Assembly (NCBI RefSeq): GCF_029962485.1 | Contig: NZ_CP073637.1 | Span: 3,286,001 to 3,350,000 of the forward strand | Source: Burkholderia cepacia | Lineage (GTDB): Bacteria; Pseudomonadota; Gammaproteobacteria; Burkholderiales; Burkholderiaceae | Direction: 5' to 3' | DNA length: 64,000 nt | Shown: positions 6,316 through 26,135 of the stretch, piece after piece | How the letters are laid out: each line of letters begins with the position of its first letter | Numbering within the stretch: the first letter of the stretch is position 1 | Made by a program: the position numbers and the translations under genes | The notes under the pieces: generated by a model | Databases searched by the model: none | Told to the model about the DNA's origin: nothing | Seen by the model: only the letters and a program-made list of their open reading frames with translations

Positions 6316-7083
6316 ATGAACACCCAAGACAATCCGCTTTCACATCTGTTCGACAACAACGAAGCCTGGGTCAAGCGCAAGCTCGAGGACGATCCGCAGT
6401 TCTTCGCGCGCCTCGCCGACCAGCAGGCGCCGGAATACCTGTGGATCGGCTGCTCGGATTCGCGCGTGCCCGCGAACCAGATCATCGGCCTGCCGCCGGG
6501 TGAAGTATTCGTGCACCGCAACATCGCGAACGTCGTCGTGCACAGCGACCTGAACTGCCTGTCGGTGATCCAGTTCGCGGTCGACATCCTGCGCGTGAAG
6601 CACATCATGGTCGTCGGCCACTACGGCTGCTCGGGCGTGAACGCGGCGTTGCTCAACCGCCGTGTCGGCCTCGCGGACAACTGGCTGCATCACGTACAGG
6701 ACGTGCGCGAGCGCCACGCGGCGCTGCTCGACGACTGGCCGGTCGGCGAAGCGCGTTATCGCCGCCTGATCGAGCTGAACGCGATCGAGCAGGTCGTCAA
6801 CGTGTGCCGCACGACGATCGTCAACGACGCATGGGCCCGCGGCCAGTCGCTCACCGTGCACGGGCTCGTGTACGGCGTGCACGACGGCCGGATGCGCAAC
6901 CTCGGGATGGCCGTGTCGAACTTCGAAGCGCTCGACGAGACCTACAAGCGCTGCGTGGCCGCCCTCACCGCCGGCGGCGAACATGCGCCGGACAACGACA
7001 TGATCGCGGCGGACGCCGCGCGGCTCGAAGGCGTCGCGCAGGCGGTCGCCGCCACGCTGAAGCCCTGCGACGACGCGAAGTAA
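6316..7083 (+). CDS. can: Beta-class carbonic anhydrase
   Basis: A 255-residue beta-carbonic anhydrase that interconverts CO2 and bicarbonate in the cytoplasm and supplies bicarbonate to carboxylases. The zinc ligands are seen as C46, H102 and C105, and the D48/R50 dyad is present in CSDSRVPA; the second motif is GHYGCSGV. The length (220-255) is normal for the Can/CynT2 type. It lies 56 bases behind aceK on the same strand and may share its transcript; the link makes metabolic sense because both respond to carbon supply, but that is inference. Confidence 0.95.
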   Translation: MNTQDNPLSHLFDNNEAWVKRKLEDDPQFFARLADQQAPEYLWIGCSDSRVPANQIIGLPPGEVFVHRNIANVVVHSDLNCLSVIQFAVDILRVKHIMVVGHYGCSGVNAALLNRRVGLADNWLHHVQDVRERHAALLDDWPVGEARYRRLIELNAIEQVVNVCRTTIVNDAWARGQSLTVHGLVYGVHDGRMRNLGMAVSNFEALDETYKRCVAALTAGGEHAPDNDMIAADAARLEGVAQAVAATLKPCDDAK

Positions 7084-7185
7084 CGCGAAAGCCGCCGGGC
7101 GGCCGTCGCCACGCGGCCGCGACACGCATCGAACGGATCTGACACCGGCACCGCCAGGGCGGCGCCACGGAAAGGAGCGACGGGC

Positions 7186-7863
7186 ATGAAAACCGTATTG
7201 ATCGTCGGCGCATCGCGCGGCCTCGGCCGCGAATTCGTCCGGCAATACCGGCGCGACGGCTGGAACGTCATCGCCACCGCGCGCGACGAAGCCTCGCTCG
7301 ACGCGCTGCGCGCGCTCGGTGCGCAGGCGCATGCGCTCGACATCGCGCAGCCCGAGCAGATCGCGGCGCTCGGCTGGAAGCTCGATGGCGAACGGCTCGA
7401 TGCGGCCGTGCTCGTGTCGGGCGTGTACGGGCCGCGCACCGAAGGCGTCGAGACGATCACCGCCGAGGATTTCGACGCGGTGATGCACACGAACGTACGC
7501 GGGCCGATGCAGCTGCTGCCGATCCTGCTGCCGCTCGTCGAGGACGCACGCGGCGTGCTGGCCGTCGTGTCGAGCCGGATGGGCAGCATCGCCGAGGCGA
7601 CCGGCACGACCGGCTGGCTGTACCGCGCGAGCAAGGCCGCGCTGAACGACGCGCTGCGCATCGCGTCGCTGCAGACGCGCCATGCCGCGTGCATCTCGCT
7701 GCATCCCGGCTGGGTGCGCACCGACATGGGCGGCGCGCAGGCCGCGATCGACCCGGAAACCAGCGTGACCGGCATGCGCCGCGTGATCGCCGAGTCCGGC
7801 TCGGACGTGTCGCAGGCCAATGGCCGCTTCTTCCAGTACGACGGCATCGAGCTGAGCTGGTGA
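7186..7863 (+). CDS. Short-chain dehydrogenase/reductase
   Basis: A 225-residue classical-type SDR. The cofactor motif GASRGLG lies at 8-14, the catalytic serine region at about 129-130 (VVSSRMG) and the YRASK motif at 146-150 supplies the Tyr and Lys. The N-terminal Rossmann fold with an Arg after the GASRGLG suggests NADP(H) preference. These proteins resemble the CsgA/sniffer-like subgroup, which lacks a clear single substrate. A clean ribosome-binding site (AAAGGAG) precedes ATG 7186. The next gene follows after 39 bases on the same strand. Confidence 0.9.
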   Translation: MKTVLIVGASRGLGREFVRQYRRDGWNVIATARDEASLDALRALGAQAHALDIAQPEQIAALGWKLDGERLDAAVLVSGVYGPRTEGVETITAEDFDAVMHTNVRGPMQLLPILLPLVEDARGVLAVVSSRMGSIAEATGTTGWLYRASKAALNDALRIASLQTRHAACISLHPGWVRTDMGGAQAAIDPETSVTGMRRVIAESGSDVSQANGRFFQYDGIELSW

Positions 7864-7902
7864 GCCGAACCGACAACCGATCGTCGTTAATTCCCGTTTC
7901 GC

Positions 7903-8340
7903 ATGATTTTGAACCGACCTGACGCGTGCCCGTGCGGCGGCGCGTCCCCCTCACCCGCCGGCAAGGCGCCGACGCCGCGCTATGCGGCCTGCTGCGGCCG
8001 CTTCATCGACGGCGGCGAAACCGCGCCCACCGCGCTCGAGTTGATGCGTTCGCGGTACAGCGCGTACGTGCTCGGCGCGACCGACTACCTGCGCGCGACC
8101 TGGGCGGCGCGCACCTGCCCGCCCGATCTCGATACCGACCCCGAAGCACCCGACGCGCCGCGCTGGCTCGGCCTCGCGGTCAAACGCCATGCACCGCTCG
8201 ACGAACGCCACGCGGAGGTCGAATTCGTGGCCCGCTACAAGGTCGGCGGACGCGCTTACCGGCTCCACGAGACGAGCCGTTTCGAGCGCGACGAGCACGG
8301 TTTCTGGCGCTATGTCGACGGCGAAGTAAGTGAACGCTGA
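7903..8340 (+). CDS. YchJ-family protein (UPF0225)
   Basis: A 145-residue protein of the YchJ family. The N-terminus carries a SEC-C-like zinc motif (CPCGG followed by CCG about 20 residues later), then the family's LMRSRYSAYV segment, WLGL and a C-terminal NTF2-like half with FVARYK and ETSRFER. Function is unsettled; SEC-C motifs usually bind zinc and mediate protein contacts. It starts 39 bases after the SDR stop, probably in the same transcript. Confidence 0.9.
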   Translation: MILNRPDACPCGGASPSPAGKAPTPRYAACCGRFIDGGETAPTALELMRSRYSAYVLGATDYLRATWAARTCPPDLDTDPEAPDAPRWLGLAVKRHAPLDERHAEVEFVARYKVGGRAYRLHETSRFERDEHGFWRYVDGEVSER

Positions 8341-8446
8341 CAAATAGTTGCTGTGTCAGACGCCGGGTAATTCCCGCATTGCACAACCCGATTTTGTCGG
8401 GCTACGATGACCTCGAATTGGTCATGTTGCATGGCAGGGCTTACGA

Positions 8447-9721
8447 ATGGCGTTCAGCAAGGTATTGGTGGGATGGATGGCGGCCTGTGCGCTGTCGGCC
8501 GCTCAGGCCGGTACGCTGCCGAACGCAAATACGGGTGCGGGCACCAGCGGGTCGCTCGCCCATGCCGAGCGCTTCGATTACGGCGACTCGAACCTGCCGC
8601 AGGTCGCGGCCGACCTCAACGAACAGATTCTCCGCATCCCGGCCGATGCTTCGGGCTCCATCACGCTCGAGGCGACGCTCTTCAAGCCGGACGGCCCCGG
8701 CCCGTTCCCGCTCGTCGTCTTCAATCACGGCAAGAACACCGGCGATCTCCATCTTCAGCCGCGCAGCCGGCCGCTCGCGTTCGCGCGCGAATTCGTGCGT
8801 CGCGGCTATGCGGTGATCGCGCCGAACCGCCAGGGCTTCGCCGGCTCGGGCGGCACGTACCAGCAGGAAGGCTGCAACGTCGGCAAGAACGGCCTCGCGC
8901 AGGCCGCCGACGTTGACGCGACGGTGCGCTACATGTCGCACCAGCCGTACGTCGATGCGTCGCGCATCGTCGTCGCCGGCACGTCGCACGGCGGCCTCGC
9001 ATCGGTCGCGTACGGCACCGAAGCCGCACCGGGCGTGCGCGGCATCATCAATTTCTCCGGCGGGCTGCGCCAGGACCTGTGCGACGGTTGGCAACGCAAC
9101 CTCGTCGATGCGTTCGACCAGTACGGCGCGCACACGGCCGTGCGCTCGCTGTGGCTGTACGGCGACAACGATTCGGTCTGGACGCCCGCACTCGTCGCAC
9201 AAATGCACGACGCGTACGTGTCGCACGGCACGCAGGCGCAGTTCATCGATTTCGGCCGCTACAAGGATGACGCGCACCGGCTGATCGTCGATCGCGACGG
9301 CGTGCCCGTGTGGTGGCCGGCCGTCAGCGCGTTCCTCGCGCAACTGAACCTGCCGACCTCGGTGCACTATGCGGTCGCGAACCCGCACGAACCGAAGGCC
9401 ACCGGCTACGCGTCGATCGATGCGGTCAGCGCGGTGCCGTATGTCGACGAAGCCGGCCGCGAAGGCTATCGCCGCTTCCTGAACCAGCATCCGAGCCGCG
9501 CGTTCGCGGTGTCGTCCGAAGGCGCCTGGTCGTGGGCGGAAGGCGGCGACGATCCGATGGCACTCGCACTCGACAACTGCGCGAAGCAAGGCGCGGGCGC
9601 GTGCCGGCTGTACGCGGTCAACGACCGTGTGGTGTGGAACACGACGCAGACGGCCGACAACGGCGACGCCAGCACGCGCGACACCCGCGACACCGATACG
9701 CACGCACTGGCTTCGCGCTGA
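8447..9721 (+). CDS. Exported alpha/beta hydrolase (dienelactone-hydrolase/peptidase-like)
   Basis: A 424-residue protein with an N-terminal signal peptide (MAFSKVLVGWMAACALSAAQA, probable cleavage after AQA), so it should act in the periplasm or outside. The alpha/beta-hydrolase core has the nucleophile elbow GTSHGG with Ser at about 180, a strand-plus-acid YGDNDSVW and a late DDAHR histidine. The strand NHGKNTGDL gives the oxyanion side. The fold is close to the dienelactone hydrolase and S9-like esterases; the substrate cannot be read. The last 90 residues (SVHYAV onward) form an extra domain containing a Cys pair. The gene is preceded and followed by long spacers, so it is probably monocistronic. 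Confidence 0.85.
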   Translation: MAFSKVLVGWMAACALSAAQAGTLPNANTGAGTSGSLAHAERFDYGDSNLPQVAADLNEQILRIPADASGSITLEATLFKPDGPGPFPLVVFNHGKNTGDLHLQPRSRPLAFAREFVRRGYAVIAPNRQGFAGSGGTYQQEGCNVGKNGLAQAADVDATVRYMSHQPYVDASRIVVAGTSHGGLASVAYGTEAAPGVRGIINFSGGLRQDLCDGWQRNLVDAFDQYGAHTAVRSLWLYGDNDSVWTPALVAQMHDAYVSHGTQAQFIDFGRYKDDAHRLIVDRDGVPVWWPAVSAFLAQLNLPTSVHYAVANPHEPKATGYASIDAVSAVPYVDEAGREGYRRFLNQHPSRAFAVSSEGAWSWAEGGDDPMALALDNCAKQGAGACRLYAVNDRVVWNTTQTADNGDASTRDTRDTDTHALASR

Positions 9722-10192
9722 CGCGCGGCGGGGCCTCCGCCGCGCCACTTTCCGTCCGATCCGGTTTCTCCTTCCGCTTTTCTTCCGCTTGCGGCCACGC
9801 CGCGCGCCGTCTCGCCTGCCGTTCCGGCCGCCCGTTTTCGCCCCTGATTCCGTAGACCATTCGGCCGCTGCCGTGCGGGTGTGACGTCACCCCGCGCCAC
9901 CGCGCCCGCCTTCGATCCCCGTTTTTTCCCGGTCTTGCCGGCGCGCGGCCCGCGATTTTTTTCTGTCAGGGGGGCTCACTCGAACGTCGTCAACTACGGT
10001 CATTTCCCCGCATCCGCCGCGTTCGGTTCCGAGCACCCCCGAACTGCACCGAACTCCCGCCCGGCAAGGCTTTGCGGGGTTTGTAACCGCTAGTGCAACG
10101 TCCCGCGGAACACGCTAATCTCAGCGCGTTTCGTGTCCCGCCGCGCGGCATCCCTTCGATGCCGCGCGGTCGTTTTACCCCCCGGAGTCGCC
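9722..10192. other. Intergenic region upstream of the biotin operon
   Basis: About 470 bases without a convincing gene. A short GC stem at 9944-9954 followed by seven T (9956-9962) could end the upstream hydrolase transcript. The stretch TTGTAACCGCTAGTGCAAC near 10082 lies where a biotin operator might be expected, but it is not a good match to the BirA palindrome known from enterobacteria. Nothing else was recognised. Confidence 0.35.
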
Positions 10193-19925: not shown

Positions 19926-22900
19926 TTATTTCGCGACGACGACCGGAATCCCCTTCAGCATGCCCGCGCCCTTCATCTCGTCGAGCGCGTGCTGCACCGC
20001 CGCGCTGGTCGCCGCATCGATGCCGAGCGCCAGCGCGAGCTCACGCTCCGCGCGCTTCACGCCGGCCAGGTTGCGCACCTTCACGTGACCGAAGCCGCGC
20101 ACGCGCGCGTGCAGGTCAGCCAGTTGCGCGACCTGCGCCGCATTGCCGGCCGTCATCGCGGCGAACGCACGCGCAAGCGTCGTCTCGTAATCGTCGGCGA
20201 GCGCGCGCTCCATCTTGCGCTCGACGGTGCGGCCGAACGGATCGAGCCACGTGCCACGCAGGCTGCGCACGCGCGCCAGCACGCCGAACACCGGCCACAT
20301 CCACTGGCCGAACACACGCTTTTTCGGCGCGCTGCCGTCGCTGCCGGCTTTCGCGACCGTCGGCGGCGCGAGGTTGAACTTCACGCGGTACGCCTGCCCC
20401 GGCACGCCTTCGAACTGCGCTTCAAGCGACGTGCGGAATGCATCGTCCGTGTACAGCCGCGCAACTTCGTATTCGTCCTTGACCGCGAGCAGCCGGTAGA
20501 ACGTCGTCGCGACCGCGCGCGTCAGCGCGTCGTCGCCTTTCGCGCGTGCGGCGTTCACGAGCGCACGGTAGCGCTCGACGTAACGCGCACCGCCGTACGC
20601 GTCGAGCCGCGCTTCGCGATCGGCGATCAGTTCCGCGAGCGTCTCCGGCGCGGCGTGCGTGACCACTGCGTGGCGTGCATTCCACAACGCGTCGAGGCCC
20701 GCCGCGTCGCCGGCCGCCATCCGGCCGATCGAGAACGCGAGCTTGTTCATCGGCACCGCGACGTTGTTCAGCTCGATCGCGCGCATCATCGCGGCGAGCG
20801 ATACCGGCACGAGGCCGAGCTGCCATGCGTAGCCGAGCATCAGGATGTTCGCGCCGATCGAATCGCCCAGGAACTTCGCGGCGAGCGCCTGCGCGTCGCA
20901 GCTCGACAGGTAGCCGTCGCCGGCCGCGTGGTGCATCTTCTCGAGCAGCGCGTCCGCATGCAGGTTCGCGTCGGGGTTCTGCACGAACGACGCGTTCGGG
21001 ATCCGGTGCGTATTGACGACGATCCGCGTGCGCTCGTGACGCACCGTCTGCAGCGCTTCCGCGCTCGCGCCGACGACCATGTCGCACGCGAGCAGCACGT
21101 CGGCCTGCTGCGTGTCGATGCGCACCTGGTTCAGCCACCGGTCGCTCGACGCGATCCGCACGAACGACAGCACCGAGCCGCCCTTCTGCGCGAAGCCCAT
21201 GAAGTCGAGCACCGATGCGCTCTTGCCTTCGAGGTGCGCGGCCATGCTGATCAGCGCGCCGACCGTCACGACGCCCGTGCCGCCGACGCCCGTCACGAGC
21301 ATGTCGAACGGCGCGGCGTCGAGATGCGTCGCCGGCACCGGCAGCCCGTCGACGCGCGCGGCGAGCGCCGCTTCGTCGAACGCCGCGCCGGCGGCCTTCT
21401 TCAGCGCCGCGCCTTCGACCGTCACGAAGCTCGGGCAGAAGCCGTTCACGCACGAATAGTCCTTGTTGCACGACGACTGGTCGATGCGGCGCTTGCGGCC
21501 GAGCGGCGTCTCGAGCGGCTCGACCGACAGGCAGTTCGATTGCACGCCGCAGTCGCCGCAGCCTTCGCACACCGCGTCGTTGATGAACAGGCGCTTGTCC
21601 GGGTCGGGGAATTCGCCTTTCTTGCGGCGGCGGCGCTTCTCGGCGGCGCAGGTCTGGTCGTAGATCAGCACGGTGACGCCCGGCGTCTCGCGCAACTCGC
21701 GCTGCACCGTGTCGAGCTCGCTGCGGTGATGGAACGTCGTGCCTTTCGGGAACAGCCCGTGATGGCCGTCGTACTTCTCCGGCTCGTCGGACACGACGAC
21801 GAAGCGCGACACGCCTTCCGCCTCGACCTGCCGCGCGATCTGCGGCACCGAGATGCTGCCGTCGACCGGCTGGCCGCCCGTCATCGCCACCGCGTCGTTG
21901 TAGAGGATCTTGTACGTGATGTTCGCTTTCGCGGCCACGGCCTGGCGGATCGCGAGGATGCCCGAGTGGAAGTAGGTGCCGTCGCCGAGGTTCTGGAACA
22001 CGTGCTTCGTGTTGGTGAACATCGCGTGCGCGGCCCAGTCGACGCCCTCGCCGCCCATCTGGATCAGCCCCGTCGTGTCGCGCTCCATCCACGACGCCAT
22101 GAAGTGGCAGCCGATGCCGGCCTGCGCGATCGAGCCTTCCGGCACCTTCGTCGACGTGTTGTGCGGGCAGCCCGAGCAGAAGTACGGCGTGCGCTTCACC
22201 GCGTCGGCCTCGTTCGACAGGATCTGCGGCGCGACGAGATCGACGACGCGTTCGCGGCGGTCGAGCGCCGGCTTGTGGCGCGCGAGCCAGTCGGCGAACA
22301 CCGGCAGGATGCGCGACGGGCGCAGTTCACCGAGTTCGGACAGCAGGCATGCGCCGGCGGCGTCATGCTTGCCGAGCACGCGCGGGCGCGCGCCTTCGGT
22401 GCGGTTGTACAGGTAGTCCTTGATCTGCTGCTCGATGACCGGGCCCTTCTCCTCGATCACGAGCACTTCGGCGAGCCCGTCGACGAAGGTCTCGATGCGC
22501 GTCATCTCGAGCGGATACGACAGGCCGACCTTGTAGATCCGCACGCCGGCCGCGTCGAGATCGGCCACCGTCAGGTCGAGACGGCGCAGCGCTTCCATCA
22601 GGTCGAGGTGCGCCTTGCCGCAGGTGACGATGCCGACGTTCGCGTGCGTGCTCGGCGCGATCCACTTGTCGATGCTGTTGGTGCGCGCGAAATGGCGCAC
22701 CGCGTCGAGCTTCGCGGCGAGGCGCGCTTCGATCGTCAGGCTCGGCAGGTCGGGCCAGCGGTTGTGCAGGCCGCCCGACGGCGGCGTGTAGCCTTCAGGC
22801 GCCGGCCACTGCGTCTGCAGCGCGTCGAGGTCGACGGTCGAGCCCGACTCGACCGTTTCCGAGATCGCCTTGAAGCCGACCCATGCGCCCGAGTAGCGCG

Positions 22901-23498
22901 ACAGCGCCCAGCCGTACAGGCCGAATTCGAGCATGTCGGCGATGTTCGCCGGGTTCACGACCGGCATGTGCCACGCGATCATCGCGAAGTCGCTCTGGTG
23001 CGGCATCGACGACGACACGCAGCCGTGATCGTCGCCCGCCACCACCAGCACGCCGCCATGCGGCGACGAACCGTACGCGTTGCCGTGCTTCAGCGCATCG
23101 CCGGCGCGATCGACGCCCGGGCCCTTGCCGTACCACATCGCATACACGCCCTCGACCGTGCGCTCGGGATCGGCCTCGACGCGCTGCGTGCCGAGTACGG
23201 CCGTGCCGCCGAGTTCCTCGTTGATCGCGGGCAGGAAGCGCACGCCGCCGGTGTCGAGCAGTTTCTTCGCCTTCCACAGCTGCTGGTCGACCATGCCGAG
23301 CGGCGAGCCGCGATAGCCGCTGACGAAGCCTGCGGTGTTGAGCCCCTGTTCGGCGTCGACCGCGCGCTGCATCAGCAGCAGGCGGACCAGCGCCTGCGTG
23401 CCGGTCAGGAAGATCCGGCCGCGCGTCGCGGTCAGGTTGTCGGTCAGTCGGTAGTCGGACAGGGCAGGCGTGCCATCGACGGGCAGGCGGGCGGTCAT
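19926..23498 (-). CDS. Indolepyruvate ferredoxin oxidoreductase, single-chain type
   Basis: A 1190-residue fused enzyme of the 2-oxoacid:ferredoxin oxidoreductase class, which decarboxylates aryl pyruvates from aromatic amino acid breakdown to aryl-acetyl-CoA, using thiamine diphosphate and passing electrons to ferredoxin. Order: pyrimidine-binding-like N-terminal domain (GFVSGYRGSPLG), TPP domain with CSGCPHNTSTKVPEGS and GGEGVDWAA, an Fe-S segment with cysteine clusters CEGCGDCG (about 643-650) and SCNKDYSCVNGFC (about 675-690), then the gamma-type domain (GVGGTGVVTVGALI) and a C-terminal helical region. Fusion of IorA- and IorB-like parts is normal in beta-proteobacteria. The ATG at 23498 follows GGAGAC and fits the relatives' start; the frame stays open about 100 codons further upstream, without support. 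The 2-kb repeat array lies directly upstream. Confidence 0.93.
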   Translation of the reverse strand: MTARLPVDGTPALSDYRLTDNLTATRGRIFLTGTQALVRLLLMQRAVDAEQGLNTAGFVSGYRGSPLGMVDQQLWKAKKLLDTGGVRFLPAINEELGGTAVLGTQRVEADPERTVEGVYAMWYGKGPGVDRAGDALKHGNAYGSSPHGGVLVVAGDDHGCVSSSMPHQSDFAMIAWHMPVVNPANIADMLEFGLYGWALSRYSGAWVGFKAISETVESGSTVDLDALQTQWPAPEGYTPPSGGLHNRWPDLPSLTIEARLAAKLDAVRHFARTNSIDKWIAPSTHANVGIVTCGKAHLDLMEALRRLDLTVADLDAAGVRIYKVGLSYPLEMTRIETFVDGLAEVLVIEEKGPVIEQQIKDYLYNRTEGARPRVLGKHDAAGACLLSELGELRPSRILPVFADWLARHKPALDRRERVVDLVAPQILSNEADAVKRTPYFCSGCPHNTSTKVPEGSIAQAGIGCHFMASWMERDTTGLIQMGGEGVDWAAHAMFTNTKHVFQNLGDGTYFHSGILAIRQAVAAKANITYKILYNDAVAMTGGQPVDGSISVPQIARQVEAEGVSRFVVVSDEPEKYDGHHGLFPKGTTFHHRSELDTVQRELRETPGVTVLIYDQTCAAEKRRRRKKGEFPDPDKRLFINDAVCEGCGDCGVQSNCLSVEPLETPLGRKRRIDQSSCNKDYSCVNGFCPSFVTVEGAALKKAAGAAFDEAALAARVDGLPVPATHLDAAPFDMLVTGVGGTGVVTVGALISMAAHLEGKSASVLDFMGFAQKGGSVLSFVRIASSDRWLNQVRIDTQQADVLLACDMVVGASAEALQTVRHERTRIVVNTHRIPNASFVQNPDANLHADALLEKMHHAAGDGYLSSCDAQALAAKFLGDSIGANILMLGYAWQLGLVPVSLAAMMRAIELNNVAVPMNKLAFSIGRMAAGDAAGLDALWNARHAVVTHAAPETLAELIADREARLDAYGGARYVERYRALVNAARAKGDDALTRAVATTFYRLLAVKDEYEVARLYTDDAFRTSLEAQFEGVPGQAYRVKFNLAPPTVAKAGSDGSAPKKRVFGQWMWPVFGVLARVRSLRGTWLDPFGRTVERKMERALADDYETTLARAFAAMTAGNAAQVAQLADLHARVRGFGHVKVRNLAGVKRAERELALALGIDAATSAAVQHALDEMKGAGMLKGIPVVVAK

Positions 23499-23833
23499 GG
23501 GGGATGTCTCCGGATTGTGCTGTTCTGGGCTGCGCGGCGGGGCGTCGGGCGACGCGTGACCGGCGGCAGCGAATGGCTCTATTTTTTCGTGCGCAGCCGA
23601 GAATGTTTTTTCTCTTCTTGCTCGGTCGGGGCGGTAGCGAGAAAAACTGCGCAGGTTTTTGCCCAGATTTGAGAGAGTTTTCGCGCGCGGTGGCGTGGGG
23701 CCGGTTGGCGGGTGTCGCGGCGGCCGGGTGGCTTGCCGGGGAAACCGGTGTGCGCTCGATGGCGCCGCCGCAGCCGCGCCGCGGGTGCTCAAGCCCCGTG
23801 TGGCAAGGGTTTCGGGCGCTTCGGGCGGTCACT

Positions 23834-25530
23834 CTCACCGTTGAATTGCACAGTCTTCCGATTGGTCAGCCGCGCCGGATGTCCACAACGCCGCGCCCCT
23901 CTGCCGACCGGGTTCGCGTGCTCACCGTTCGATTGCACAGCGTTTCGAGTGGCGTCGGGGCCGGGATGTCCACACCCGGAACCGGCATGCGGTTCGCCCG
24001 GGCGCCGATGCTCACCGTTGGAATTCACAGCGCGGCGAGTGGGTCCTGGCGGCGGATATCCACATCCTGGGCAGCTCACCTCGTCGATCTGCTGCGCGCC
24101 TCACCTCGCGAATACACAGGGTCGGGAGTGAGTTTGTCTCGCGGATATCTACGCCGGGATACGCGCGCTGCGTGGCTACCGCTTCGCACTCACCGTTGAA
24201 ATACACAGTGCCACGAGTCGTTTCGGCGGCCGGATATCCACATCGGAGAGCATCGGCCGATCGAGCGCAGAAGCGCGTTTCAACGCGCACCGGCGAGCGG
24301 CAATGCCTACCGGCAGCGGGTTGTCACCCGATCGGCCACTGACGCTCATCGTTGAAATACACAGTGTCACGAGTCGTTTCGGCGGCCGGATATCCACATC
24401 GGAGAGCATCGGCCGATCGAGCGCAGAAGCGCGTTTCAACGCGCACCGGCGAGCGGCAATGCCTACTGGCAGCGGGTTGTCACCCGATCGGCCACCGACA
24501 CTCACCGTGTAAATTCACAGTGCCGCGAGTCGTTTCGGCGGCCTGATATCCACATCGGAGAGCATCGGCCGATCGAACGCGGAAGCGCATTTCAAAGCAC
24601 ACCGGCGGGCGGCAATCCCTGCCGGCAGCGGGTTGTCACCCGATCGGCCACCGACACTCACCGTGAAAATACACAGTGCCGCGAGTCGTTTCGGCGGCCG
24701 GATATCCACATCGGAGAGCATCGTCCGATCGAACGCGGAAGCGCGTTTCAACGCGCACCGGCGAGCGGCAATGCCTGCCGCCAGCGGCTTGTCACCCGAT
24801 CGGCGACCGACGCTCACCGTCGAAATACACAGTGCCGCGAGTCGTTTCGGCGGCCTGATATCCACACTGAAATGCGCACGGCGCTCCTGATCGGGCACGT
24901 GCCCCGGGCGACATCGTCGGCCGGACAGCCGCGTCCGGACGGGCCGCCAGCCAATCGGATGCTCATACTCACCATTGAATTCCACGGCGTGTCGAGTCGC
25001 TTGAGAGATCGCGAATGCGCGATGAAATTCGCACGTTTCGGACCACGTGCTCGCGCTCACCGTTAGAATGCACGACCCTTCGATCGGGATCCGGACCCGG
25101 ATGCCGGCGTCGCGACGCACGCGTGGCCTGGCCACACATTCGTGCGTTCCGTTAGAATGCGCGGCGCCTCGAATCACTGCAAAGGCCTGCGAGCCTTGCT
25201 GGAACTGGCGCAGCGCGCGATCGGGCGTCGACGCTCACCATTGGATTTCACAGCATTTCGCTTCGTCTCGTGGCGAGTTGTCCACAACCCTCTTCACGTA
25301 TTGCGCGACATCCGGCGATCCTCACCGGTGAAATCCACAGCGCGTCGAGTCGTTTCGGGGTGAGGATATCCACAACTGGTTGCGCGACGAGATCGCGATG
25401 TCCACATCGGCGAACGCGTCGGCGCACCGCAACCGGGGAAAGCCGGAAAGGCTTGTCCGGTCAGCCTCGGCGGCACCCTCACCATTCAAATGCACAGCGT
25501 TTCGAGTCGCCGTAGGGCAGGTTGTCCACA
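23834..25530 (+). repeat. Array of fifteen direct 54-bp two-part repeats
   Basis: Elements start at 23834, 23921, 24011, 24100, 24189, 24345, 24501, 24657, 24813, 24968, 25056, 25145, 25234, 25321 and 25478; all face the same way. Consensus: left block CTCACCGTTGAAATNCACAG, a middle often reading GAGTCGTTTCGGCGG, and right block GGATATCCACA ending at base 54 (53 in the elements at 25234 and 25478). Twelve elements keep both ends at fixed spacing, although the right block of the one at 24100 is degenerate; those at 24968, 25056 and 25145 keep only the left block. A lone right block (GATGTCCACA) is at 25397-25406. Steps between starts are 87-90 bp or 155-157 bp only. The right block resembles a DnaA box (TTATNCACA), matching 8 of 9. 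Function unknown. Confidence 0.9.
24189..24967 (+). repeat. 156-bp tandem repeat, about five copies
   Basis: From the element at 24189 the 54-bp repeat and its 102-bp spacer form a 156-bp unit, repeated at exact 156-base steps to 24813; the fifth spacer has kept the length (101) but lost the sequence. In the first spacer GGCCGATCG (24255-24263) faces CGATCGGCC (24329-24337), and inside are the hairpins GCGCGTTTCAACGCGC and CGGGTTGTCACCCG. Copies differ by scattered substitutions, so the duplication is not brand new. Confidence 0.9.
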
Positions 25531-25577
25531 TCCGTCCGACGATGCCCGCCGCGCCGACAGGTGCTCCCGAGCGGACG

Positions 25578-26135
25578 CTATTCCGCAATCGACCGGATGA
25601 CCGTCGCAGGATTACCGCCGACCAGCGTATTCGGCGGAACGTCGCGCGTGACGACCGCAGCGGCCGCGACGACCGAATTCTCGCCGACCGTCACGCCGCC
25701 GATGATCGTCGCGCCCGCGCCGATCCACACATTCCGTTCGATCACGATCGGCTTCGCGACGACGCAGTCGCGCCGCCGCGAAGGCTCGACCGGATGACCG
25801 GACGTGATCAGGCTGACGTTCGGGCCGATCATCACGTCGTCGCCGATCTCGAGCCCGCCCAGATCGTAGAACGTGCAGTTCTGGTTGACGAACACGTTGC
25901 GCCCGAGCTTCATGCCGGTGCCGCCCGTGGCATGAAACGGTGGGATCAGCACGAAGCCGTCGTCCACCTGCGTGCCGATCAGCTCGCCAAACAATGCGCG
26001 CACTTCCGCTGCATCGTCGAACGTCAGACGGTTGAGCCGCGCGGTGATCGCCATCGCTCGCCTGACCTCGGCCACCATGGCCGCCGATTCGGGCGTTCTT
26101 CGCGGAATGATCGTGGTGCGATCGTCGTTTGCCAT
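25578..26135 (-). CDS. Sugar O-acetyltransferase (NodL/LacA/Maa type, left-handed beta-helix)
   Basis: A 185-residue hexapeptide-repeat acetyltransferase. After a short helical N-terminus (about 20-60, LNRLTFDDAAEVRALFGELIG) come the acceptor-site segment and beta-helix: GRNVFVNQNCTFYDLGGLEIGDDVMIGPNVSLITSGHPVEP contains the catalytic His of the family, and NVWIGAGATIIGGVTVGENSVVAAAAVVTRDVP closes the helix, ending GGNPATVIR. It should transfer acetyl from acetyl-CoA to a sugar hydroxyl. The ATG at 26135 follows GGAGGC; a longer frame reaches 26309. Downstream lies the repeat array. Confidence 0.9.
   Translation of the reverse strand: MANDDRTTIIPRRTPESAAMVAEVRRAMAITARLNRLTFDDAAEVRALFGELIGTQVDDGFVLIPPFHATGGTGMKLGRNVFVNQNCTFYDLGGLEIGDDVMIGPNVSLITSGHPVEPSRRRDCVVAKPIVIERNVWIGAGATIIGGVTVGENSVVAAAAVVTRDVPPNTLVGGNPATVIRSIAE

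Follow-up and report, generated by a model that had tools for sequence, protein, structure and literature searches.

Why does a 2-kb stretch between two genes of Burkholderia cepacia hold fifteen copies of a conserved motif? The initial annotation of the 64-kb stretch of DNA analyzed here (hereafter the window; C1:3286001-3350000 in a genome of 7.70 Mb in three contigs) had presented these copies as a candidate for an unrecognised system. This wording is too strong, as DnaA-box clusters near the origin are already a known kind of element; the initial annotation had included neither the match of the repeats to the DnaA box, nor their CACAG motif, nor a second array on the same chromosome.

Structure of the array

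Pattern searches and direct reading placed 15 elements on the + strand throughout (array 1; Table 1), in a gap of 2.08 kb (23499-25577) between two genes with Pfam domains, and thus bore out the number, the single orientation and the 2-kb gap described initially. The twelve elements said to have end blocks 54 (or 53) bases apart were also recovered, i.e., the right block is kept at 53-54 bp in 12 of the 15 elements (11 with an exact WTRTCCACA, element 4 with GATATCTACG), while the right box is gone in elements 10-12. Fourteen of the 15 left blocks show ≤5 mismatches from CTCACCGTTGAAATNCACAG, the remaining one being degenerate. At ≤3 mismatches, this left pattern matched 12 times on the + strand and 0 times on the - strand of the window; none of 10 mononucleotide shuffles gave a match. 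A Pfam scan of five proteins of the window revealed neither a transposase nor a cas gene, as had been stated. We take the flanking oxidoreductase to be of the indolepyruvate ferredoxin oxidoreductase type; in 6 of 17 fetched loci, nothing that matches the acetyltransferase on the other side was seen next to the array.

Table 1. Features of array 1 and its surroundings (positions in the window)
Feature	Position	Strand	Description
Array 1	23834..25530	+	15 composite 54-bp elements (CTCACC - TNCACAG - CGAGT - WTRTCCACA; genus consensus)
Element 1	23834..23887	+	left CACAG, right ATGTCCACA
Element 2	23921..23974	+	left CACAG, right ATGTCCACA
Element 3	24011..24064	+	left CACAG, right ATATCCACA
Element 4	24100..24153	+	left block diverged but with CACAG; right box GATATCTACG
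Element 5	24189..24242	+	opens the set with 156-bp steps
Element 6	24345..24398	+	156-bp-step set
Element 7	24501..24554	+	156-bp-step set
Element 8	24657..24710	+	156-bp-step set
Element 9	24813..24866	+	156-bp-step set
Element 10	24968..25021	+	degenerate: left CACGG, without right box
Element 11	25056..25109	+	degenerate: left CACGA, without right box
Element 12	25145..25198	+	degenerate: left CGCGG, without right box
Element 13	25234..25286	+	53 bp, right TTGTCCACA
Element 14	25321..25374	+	right ATATCCACA
Solitary DnaA-box-like ATGTCCACA, without left block	25398..25406	+	twelfth exact WTRTCCACA
Element 15	25478..25530	+	53 bp, right TTGTCCACA
Element-free upstream region of the oxidoreductase	23499..23833		first ~190 bp align in 3 of 6 array-free genomes tried
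POR / TPP-enzyme oxidoreductase	19926..23498	-	flanking gene outside the array; Pfam
Hexapeptide-repeat acetyltransferase	25578..26135	-	flanking gene; Pfam

A logo built from 371 unique elements of 30 loci reads CTCACC-GTTGAAAT-N-CACAG-nn-TTTCGAGT-...-GG(A/T)T(A/G)TCCACA, where the right-box columns come only from elements with TCCACA (110 of the 371 lack it), so that the core is perfect by selection, and where the matrix used to find elements included the CACAG positions and thus favours CACAG. Each element hence contains four conserved blocks, i.e., CTCACC, TNCACAG, CGAGT and WTRTCCACA; the conserved CGAGT block refutes the freely drifting middle that had been described for the element.

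The steps between elements had been reported to take only two values (87-90 and 155-157 bp). This is correct for the present genome but is a local property, as relatives show further values, including 56, 72-76, 165-170, 175-182 and 190 bp, besides others. Elements 5 to 9, with their 156-bp steps, are repeated together with their spacers (300-nt copies are 93% and 91% identical to the reference, falling to 76% and 61% for the outermost copies), which indicates that part of the regular spacing, previously ascribed to selection or ancient tandem growth, reflects tandem duplication in this genome. Helical phasing of the steps was borderline at best: an ~11.2-bp period appeared only when repeated steps were counted (0 of 1000 random sets equally strong), and related arrays repeat steps. 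With distinct steps, 129 of 1000 random sets were equally strong for array 1 (12 layouts), 772 for array 2 (see below) and 111 for both, in a test that omitted L054, L055, L058, L059 and L067 (mixed orientation) and L061 (single orientation); for array 1 of the 17 fetched loci plus the home array, using same-strand distinct steps, the number was 35 of 1000. Both tests dropped steps ≥300. Elements occur in both orientations in seven of the 17 fetched loci (L054, L055, L056, L057, L058, L059 and L067), which suggests inversions inside the array.

Several other identities of the array were rejected. Steps such as 88, 89 and 178 are not multiples of three, which argues against coding DNA; the consensus fold contained no pairs and Rfam gave no match up to E = 1, which argues against a structured RNA; and a distant-mode search (E ≤ 1e-5) gave 0 matches in 72,556 plasmid and 50,697 phage records, which argues against a plasmid- or phage-borne array.

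DnaA-box-like sequences, a second array and the CACAG motif

DnaA reads its box through residues of domain IV. The right block resembles such a box, its commonest form, ATATCCACA, being one base from the E. coli consensus. All 12 exact WTRTCCACA in the window lie inside array 1. Genome-wide, this pattern occurs 72 times, as compared to 45 times for the reversed control pattern, with 12 occurrences in array 1, 6 in array 2, 12 in a chromosome-2 cluster and 42 elsewhere. In the left block, the free base of the ATNCACA core (logo position 15, 0.11 bit) corresponds to the N of the DnaA box TTATNCACA. The stricter TTWTNCACA has no exact match in the window; with one mismatch it occurs 9 times in array 1 and 13 times in the other 62 kb. 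By sequence, array 1 thus qualifies as a DnaA-box cluster, i.e., boxes with ≤1 deviation concentrated in a short non-coding stretch. Domain IV of the DnaA of this strain aligns with E. coli 1j1v over 86 residues, including GGRDHTTVLHA, and a figure legend in PMC4948915 likewise assigns reading of the box to residues of this domain.

A model built from the sequences of the 15 elements alone, searched against the home genome at E ≤ 1e-3 (150 of 6431 candidates scored), matched array 1 and C1:17129-17808 only. Both places are on chromosome 1, and the repeats are thus not scattered at random through the genome, which had been named initially as a sign of a passive repeat. The second place (array 2, C1:17131-17808) contains six elements, all six with right boxes matching at 9 of 9 positions and one exactly TTATCCACA; it also contains six boxes within one mismatch of TTWTNCACA, one of them exact, and nowhere else in the 170 kb scanned are such boxes grouped as densely. 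By eye, its spacers show no apparent relation to the spacers of array 1. It follows a sigma-factor gene (Pfam) and a frame that by eye resembles an anti-sigma factor (no Pfam match). Array 2 was present with at least 2 elements in 11 of 13 genomes (G000, G002, G010, G012, G018, G022, G030, G033, G034, G042 and G049), in which 40 of 44 unique elements have a 9/9 right box, some exactly TTATCCACA. It was not found in the stretches read in G024 (5-25 kb) and G040 (5-45 kb), where the right place may lie outside; in these two genomes the methylase gene described below is further out (162 kb and 85 kb, respectively).

The dnaA gene spans the start of C1 and parB is found at 105.8 kb. Within the 170 kb examined (-20 to +150 kb), the cumulative GC skew has its minimum near C1:77 kb, with a nearly flat course from 30 to 80 kb, and DnaA boxes, including TTATCCACA, are present at C1:74.6-77.9 kb. 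This local minimum and these boxes make C1:74.6-77.9 kb the likely origin region of chromosome 1; the J2315 study, in the part of its text available (PMC4948915), left the exact chromosome-1 origin open, and array 2 may lie inside a published origin map. Seen from the likely origin, both arrays lie in one direction, array 1 ~310 kb to the left and array 2 ~60 kb. The distance between array 1 and the methylase gene, itself near the likely origin, was 261-341 kb (6.1-9.2% of the replicon) in 18 of 20 chosen genomes, with G058 (877 kb) and G009 (533 kb) as outliers; this conserved position is partly due to general synteny.

Other DnaA-box-like sequences were observed elsewhere. On chromosome 2, a locus (L217, C2:3127001-3139000) with LysR-type and class A beta-lactamase-like genes (frames, by eye) carries, at C2:3129909-3135262, nine copies of a different repeat of ~84 nt with the layout GATCAA..TTAG..GGATATCCACA nGCTTGCCAACA..CTGTGGACAAG, i.e., with two inverted DnaA-like boxes. 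All 12 genomes searched with a model of this repeat gave matches (6-12 per genome), four of these genomes being without array 1; weaker matches fell on a second replicon, which in G000 is the main chromosome. A head-to-head pair of DnaA boxes, TTGTCCACA-CCTCG-TGTGGATAA, was found at a single place (L219, C1:2686654-2686676).

According to the accessible text of PMC4948915 and PMC7364216, CACAG is the motif in which BCAL3494 of Burkholderia places m6A (fourth base, forward strand). It was present in 515 of 575 unique elements (471 of 531 in array 1 and 44 of 44 in array 2), counts that favour CACAG because the finding matrix included these positions; with these positions ignored, 323 of 351 elements still carried it. 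Conversely, a G that would complete CACAG followed only one of 384 exact 9/9 right boxes (1/344 in array 1 and 0/40 in array 2) and, among right boxes matching at ≥7 of 9 positions, 11 of 454 in array 1 (3 of them giving CACAG) and 0 of 44 in array 2, as compared to 8 of 18 TCCACA and 19 of 74 CCACA in the window outside the array; Fisher tests on these numbers assume an independence that related elements do not have. In the home array, CACAG is found in all 12 elements with the right block and is missing in the three without. Among the 351 elements found without the CACAG positions, 274 had both CACAG and the right box, 49 only CACAG, 9 only the box and 19 neither. CTCACC follows the box in the same way (275, 54, 8 and 14, respectively), and these data thus show that elements decay as a unit, not a special link between CACAG and the box.

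Between array 2 and the likely origin, a type III restriction-modification-like gene pair is located at C1:34453-39599 (L072). Its methylase gene (C1:37482-39599; Pfam N6_N4_Mtase; all NCBIfam matches far below cut-off) lies beside a type III Res-like gene and, by type and place, is the presumed counterpart of BCAL3494. As matches to this gene were found in 65 of 65 Burkholderia genomes, its presence does not predict that of the array. Identity to the home copy was 88-100% in the 52 genomes with array 1 and 68-84% in the 13 array-free genomes, a split that phylogeny alone may explain.

Distribution and conservation

Of 65 Burkholderia genomes, 52 proved to have array 1, with 8-21 matches each; a fifty-third genome that matched at E ≤ 0.01 (G016) was excluded as it gave a single weak match with no array upstream of the oxidoreductase gene. 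Since these searches used stricter filters and scored 83 candidates per genome (18 in the family-wide sample), the counts are lower bounds. The upstream stretches fetched from the 13 genomes without the array (3.1-10 kb) contained no WTRTCCACA. Among the best 80 named loci listed, 10 carried the array (B. cenocepacia, B. latens, B. territorii, B. ubonensis, B. pseudomultivorans and five further Burkholderia). No array was seen in the other 70, among them loci from Paraburkholderia, Caballeronia, Trinickia, Mycetohabitans, Pandoraea and some Burkholderia, with L187 represented without upstream DNA and L131, L155, L175 and L196 by only 1.2-3.1 kb.

In the family sample, 39 of 299 genomes matched at E ≤ 1e-3, i.e., 36 in the genus and three others with one match each. 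The matching stretches of these three held no full element; two of them hold a left-block-like stretch without a right box. In all, 13 weak model-match stretches (L200-L212) were read for right boxes and with the left-block matrix, and none contained a full element. The two left-block-like stretches just mentioned are those of L200 (G156, about 280) and L207 (G139, about 344), one in each, from another genus of the family, and they are alike; L210 and L211 (G010 and G000) were rejected as elements, as by eye the pair reads as coding sequence. The initial annotation had also regarded absence from close relatives as a sign of a passive repeat: the array was not found in more distant relatives and is thus lineage-specific, yet 52 of the 65 Burkholderia genomes have it.

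Pairwise divergence was 0-9% for CTCACC, 1-14% for the right box and 2-18% for TNCACAG, as compared to 19-37% for the spacers and 17-44% for lost boxes, across nine overlapping pairs drawn from 7 sequences and picked for similar layout; elements were called on one sequence per pair, which favours conserved positions. Indel events per substitution ranged from 0.020 to 0.062 in the arrays and from 0.054 to 0.099 in neighbouring intergenic DNA, and were lower in the arrays in all 9 pairs (overlapping, from 6 loci, likewise picked for similar layout). As the blocks are conserved, the spacers diverged and indels few, the elements behave as selected protein-binding sites. The part of the initial proposal (two contact sites for one protein complex) that concerns binding is thus supported by these sequence comparisons, while the free middle that it assumed is not.

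Candidate roles of the arrays

We favour, with moderate confidence, the interpretation that array 1 is a lineage-specific, origin-side cluster of composite sites, predicted to bind DnaA, that would titrate or inactivate this protein. The match of the right box, the two places near the likely origin, the conservation of the blocks, the joint loss of CACAG and box and the conserved position all point to DnaA. Each element would offer a strong-looking DnaA box (WTRTCCACA, right) and a weaker DnaA-like site overlapping the methylatable TNCACAG (left), with CTCACC and CGAGT as two further blocks at fixed distances. The ~12 intact elements of array 1 and the 6 of array 2 would be duplicated soon after the origin fires, and the duplicated elements would then capture DnaA as it becomes free and so restrain re-initiation, through simple titration or, in the manner of datA, through stimulation of ATP hydrolysis. 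In this way, the arrays would probably contribute to setting the time at which chromosome replication starts. Several observations count against this interpretation, i.e., DnaA does not explain CTCACC and CGAGT; the array was not found in 13 of 65 Burkholderia genomes, nor in other genera, so that Burkholderia can evidently do without it, whereas DnaA is, to our knowledge, universal; the window contains no exact TTWTNCACA; and 7 of the 17 loci hold elements in both orientations.

Known systems offer partial parallels. In the available descriptions (PMC4585315, PMC5742627), datA of E. coli is a non-coding DnaA-box cluster near, not at, the origin, on one replichore and at a conserved relative distance, much as the array probably is, and we regard the array as possibly datA-like in its working without claiming identity; datA consists of a single site that combines a few boxes with an IHF site, whereas here 15 + 6 composite units carry extra blocks and a methylation motif. 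DnaA-box clusters close to oriC, which repress untimely initiation, are also described for B. subtilis and S. coelicolor in the accessible parts of the same papers, but these descriptions mention no composite unit whose parts keep fixed distances and include a methylation motif. DARS1 and DARS2 of E. coli share intergenic DnaA-box cores with fixed box spacing; their box I is opposed to boxes II and III, as outlined in PMC5742627, whereas the two boxes of each array element read on one strand, and the chromosome-2 repeat with inverted boxes is closer to DARS in layout than the array elements are. The origins of B. cenocepacia share the 7-mer CTGTGCA and the methylated CACAG (TGCACAG ends the commonest left-block core), but the sections of PMC4948915 and PMC7364216 available describe motifs at origins, not composite arrays.

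A second explanation, which we consider unlikely, is that the elements are sites of another lineage-specific DNA-binding protein, e.g., a nucleoid or segregation factor, and that the match to the DnaA box is coincidental. DnaA would explain only one or two of the four conserved blocks, and the arrays are restricted to a lineage, both as this explanation would predict. On the other hand, the right box varies (W T R T CCACA) as expected of a DnaA box, and the different chromosome-2 repeat has the same 9-mer.

Somewhat more doubtful still is binding of the chromosome-2 initiator RepA, with or instead of DnaA, which would couple the chromosome-1 fork to initiation on chromosome 2 in the manner of crtS of V. 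cholerae, a chromosome-1 site tied to the initiator of the second chromosome (PMC4948915, in part). The arrays, like crtS, are on chromosome 1; CTCACC in the left block is identical to the 3' half of the chromosome-2 iteron CCCGAAAANNCTCACCT (its consensus as given in a legend of PMC4948915), and the same paper, in the text available, proposes that a link between chromosomes 1 and 2 is worth looking for. A cluster of this iteron was observed at C2:2354827-2356118 (L078, L218), beside the chromosome-2 parB. However, only the six bases of CTCACC are common to element and iteron; the CCCGAAAA half is missing from the element, and its best match in the array region has 4 mismatches and lies on the other strand, off the left block. 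Moreover, crtS is described, in the same partial source, as one short site (a 70-bp sequence) well away from the origin, not an array of repeats, and genomes without array 1 are likewise multi-replicon.

The array could alternatively be a cis-regulator of the oxidoreductase gene, which we judge very unlikely. It is located upstream of this gene in all 17 fetched loci, a regularity that had been proposed for checking; 16 are within 335-482 bp, with 335-348 bp in 15 loci and 482 bp in L054. Array 2, however, sits away from any such gene, which makes the link improbable; 3.3 kb separate gene and array in G010, and the gene is retained in the 13 genomes without the array. The G010 locus (L053, G010:C2:3464000-3482000) has an element-free 3.3 kb at 6500-9835, unlike the other 16 loci. 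In six array-free genomes measured, 243-351 bp separate the oxidoreductase from the next matched gene; the first ~190 bp upstream align in L104, L106 and L107, the other flank aligning only at a glutathione-transferase gene, and the upstream DNA of L108-L110 aligns poorly. The least probable explanation, a passive minisatellite, is suggested by the 156-bp-step set and by variation in copy number and orientation, but is largely refuted by the conservation of blocks between spacers diverged by 19-37%, the blocks common to both arrays and the scarcity of indels.

Returning to the arrays as putative DnaA-binding sites, we infer that their CACAG sites are methylated in this strain and that the arrays affect initiation. 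A tentative and rather unlikely extension is that each CACAG, methylated on one strand only and placed beside a CACAG-free DnaA box, forms a methylation-marked replication timer. If so, the passage of the fork through one-way arrays would leave one sister marked and the other unmarked, and a time-limited change in the binding of DnaA, or possibly of the chromosome-2 initiator, would set the next initiation.

A survey of the main text of the open-access literature found no published description of the arrays, and the composite repeated unit, the motif pattern and the lineage restriction appear to be new so far as these searches show. The arrays would extend the known DnaA-box clusters by a form that is repeated, composite and associated with methylation. 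For multi-chromosome Burkholderia, in which the limits on origin firing are of interest, two conserved, deletable and apparently non-coding arrays would offer a direct test of how these limits are set.
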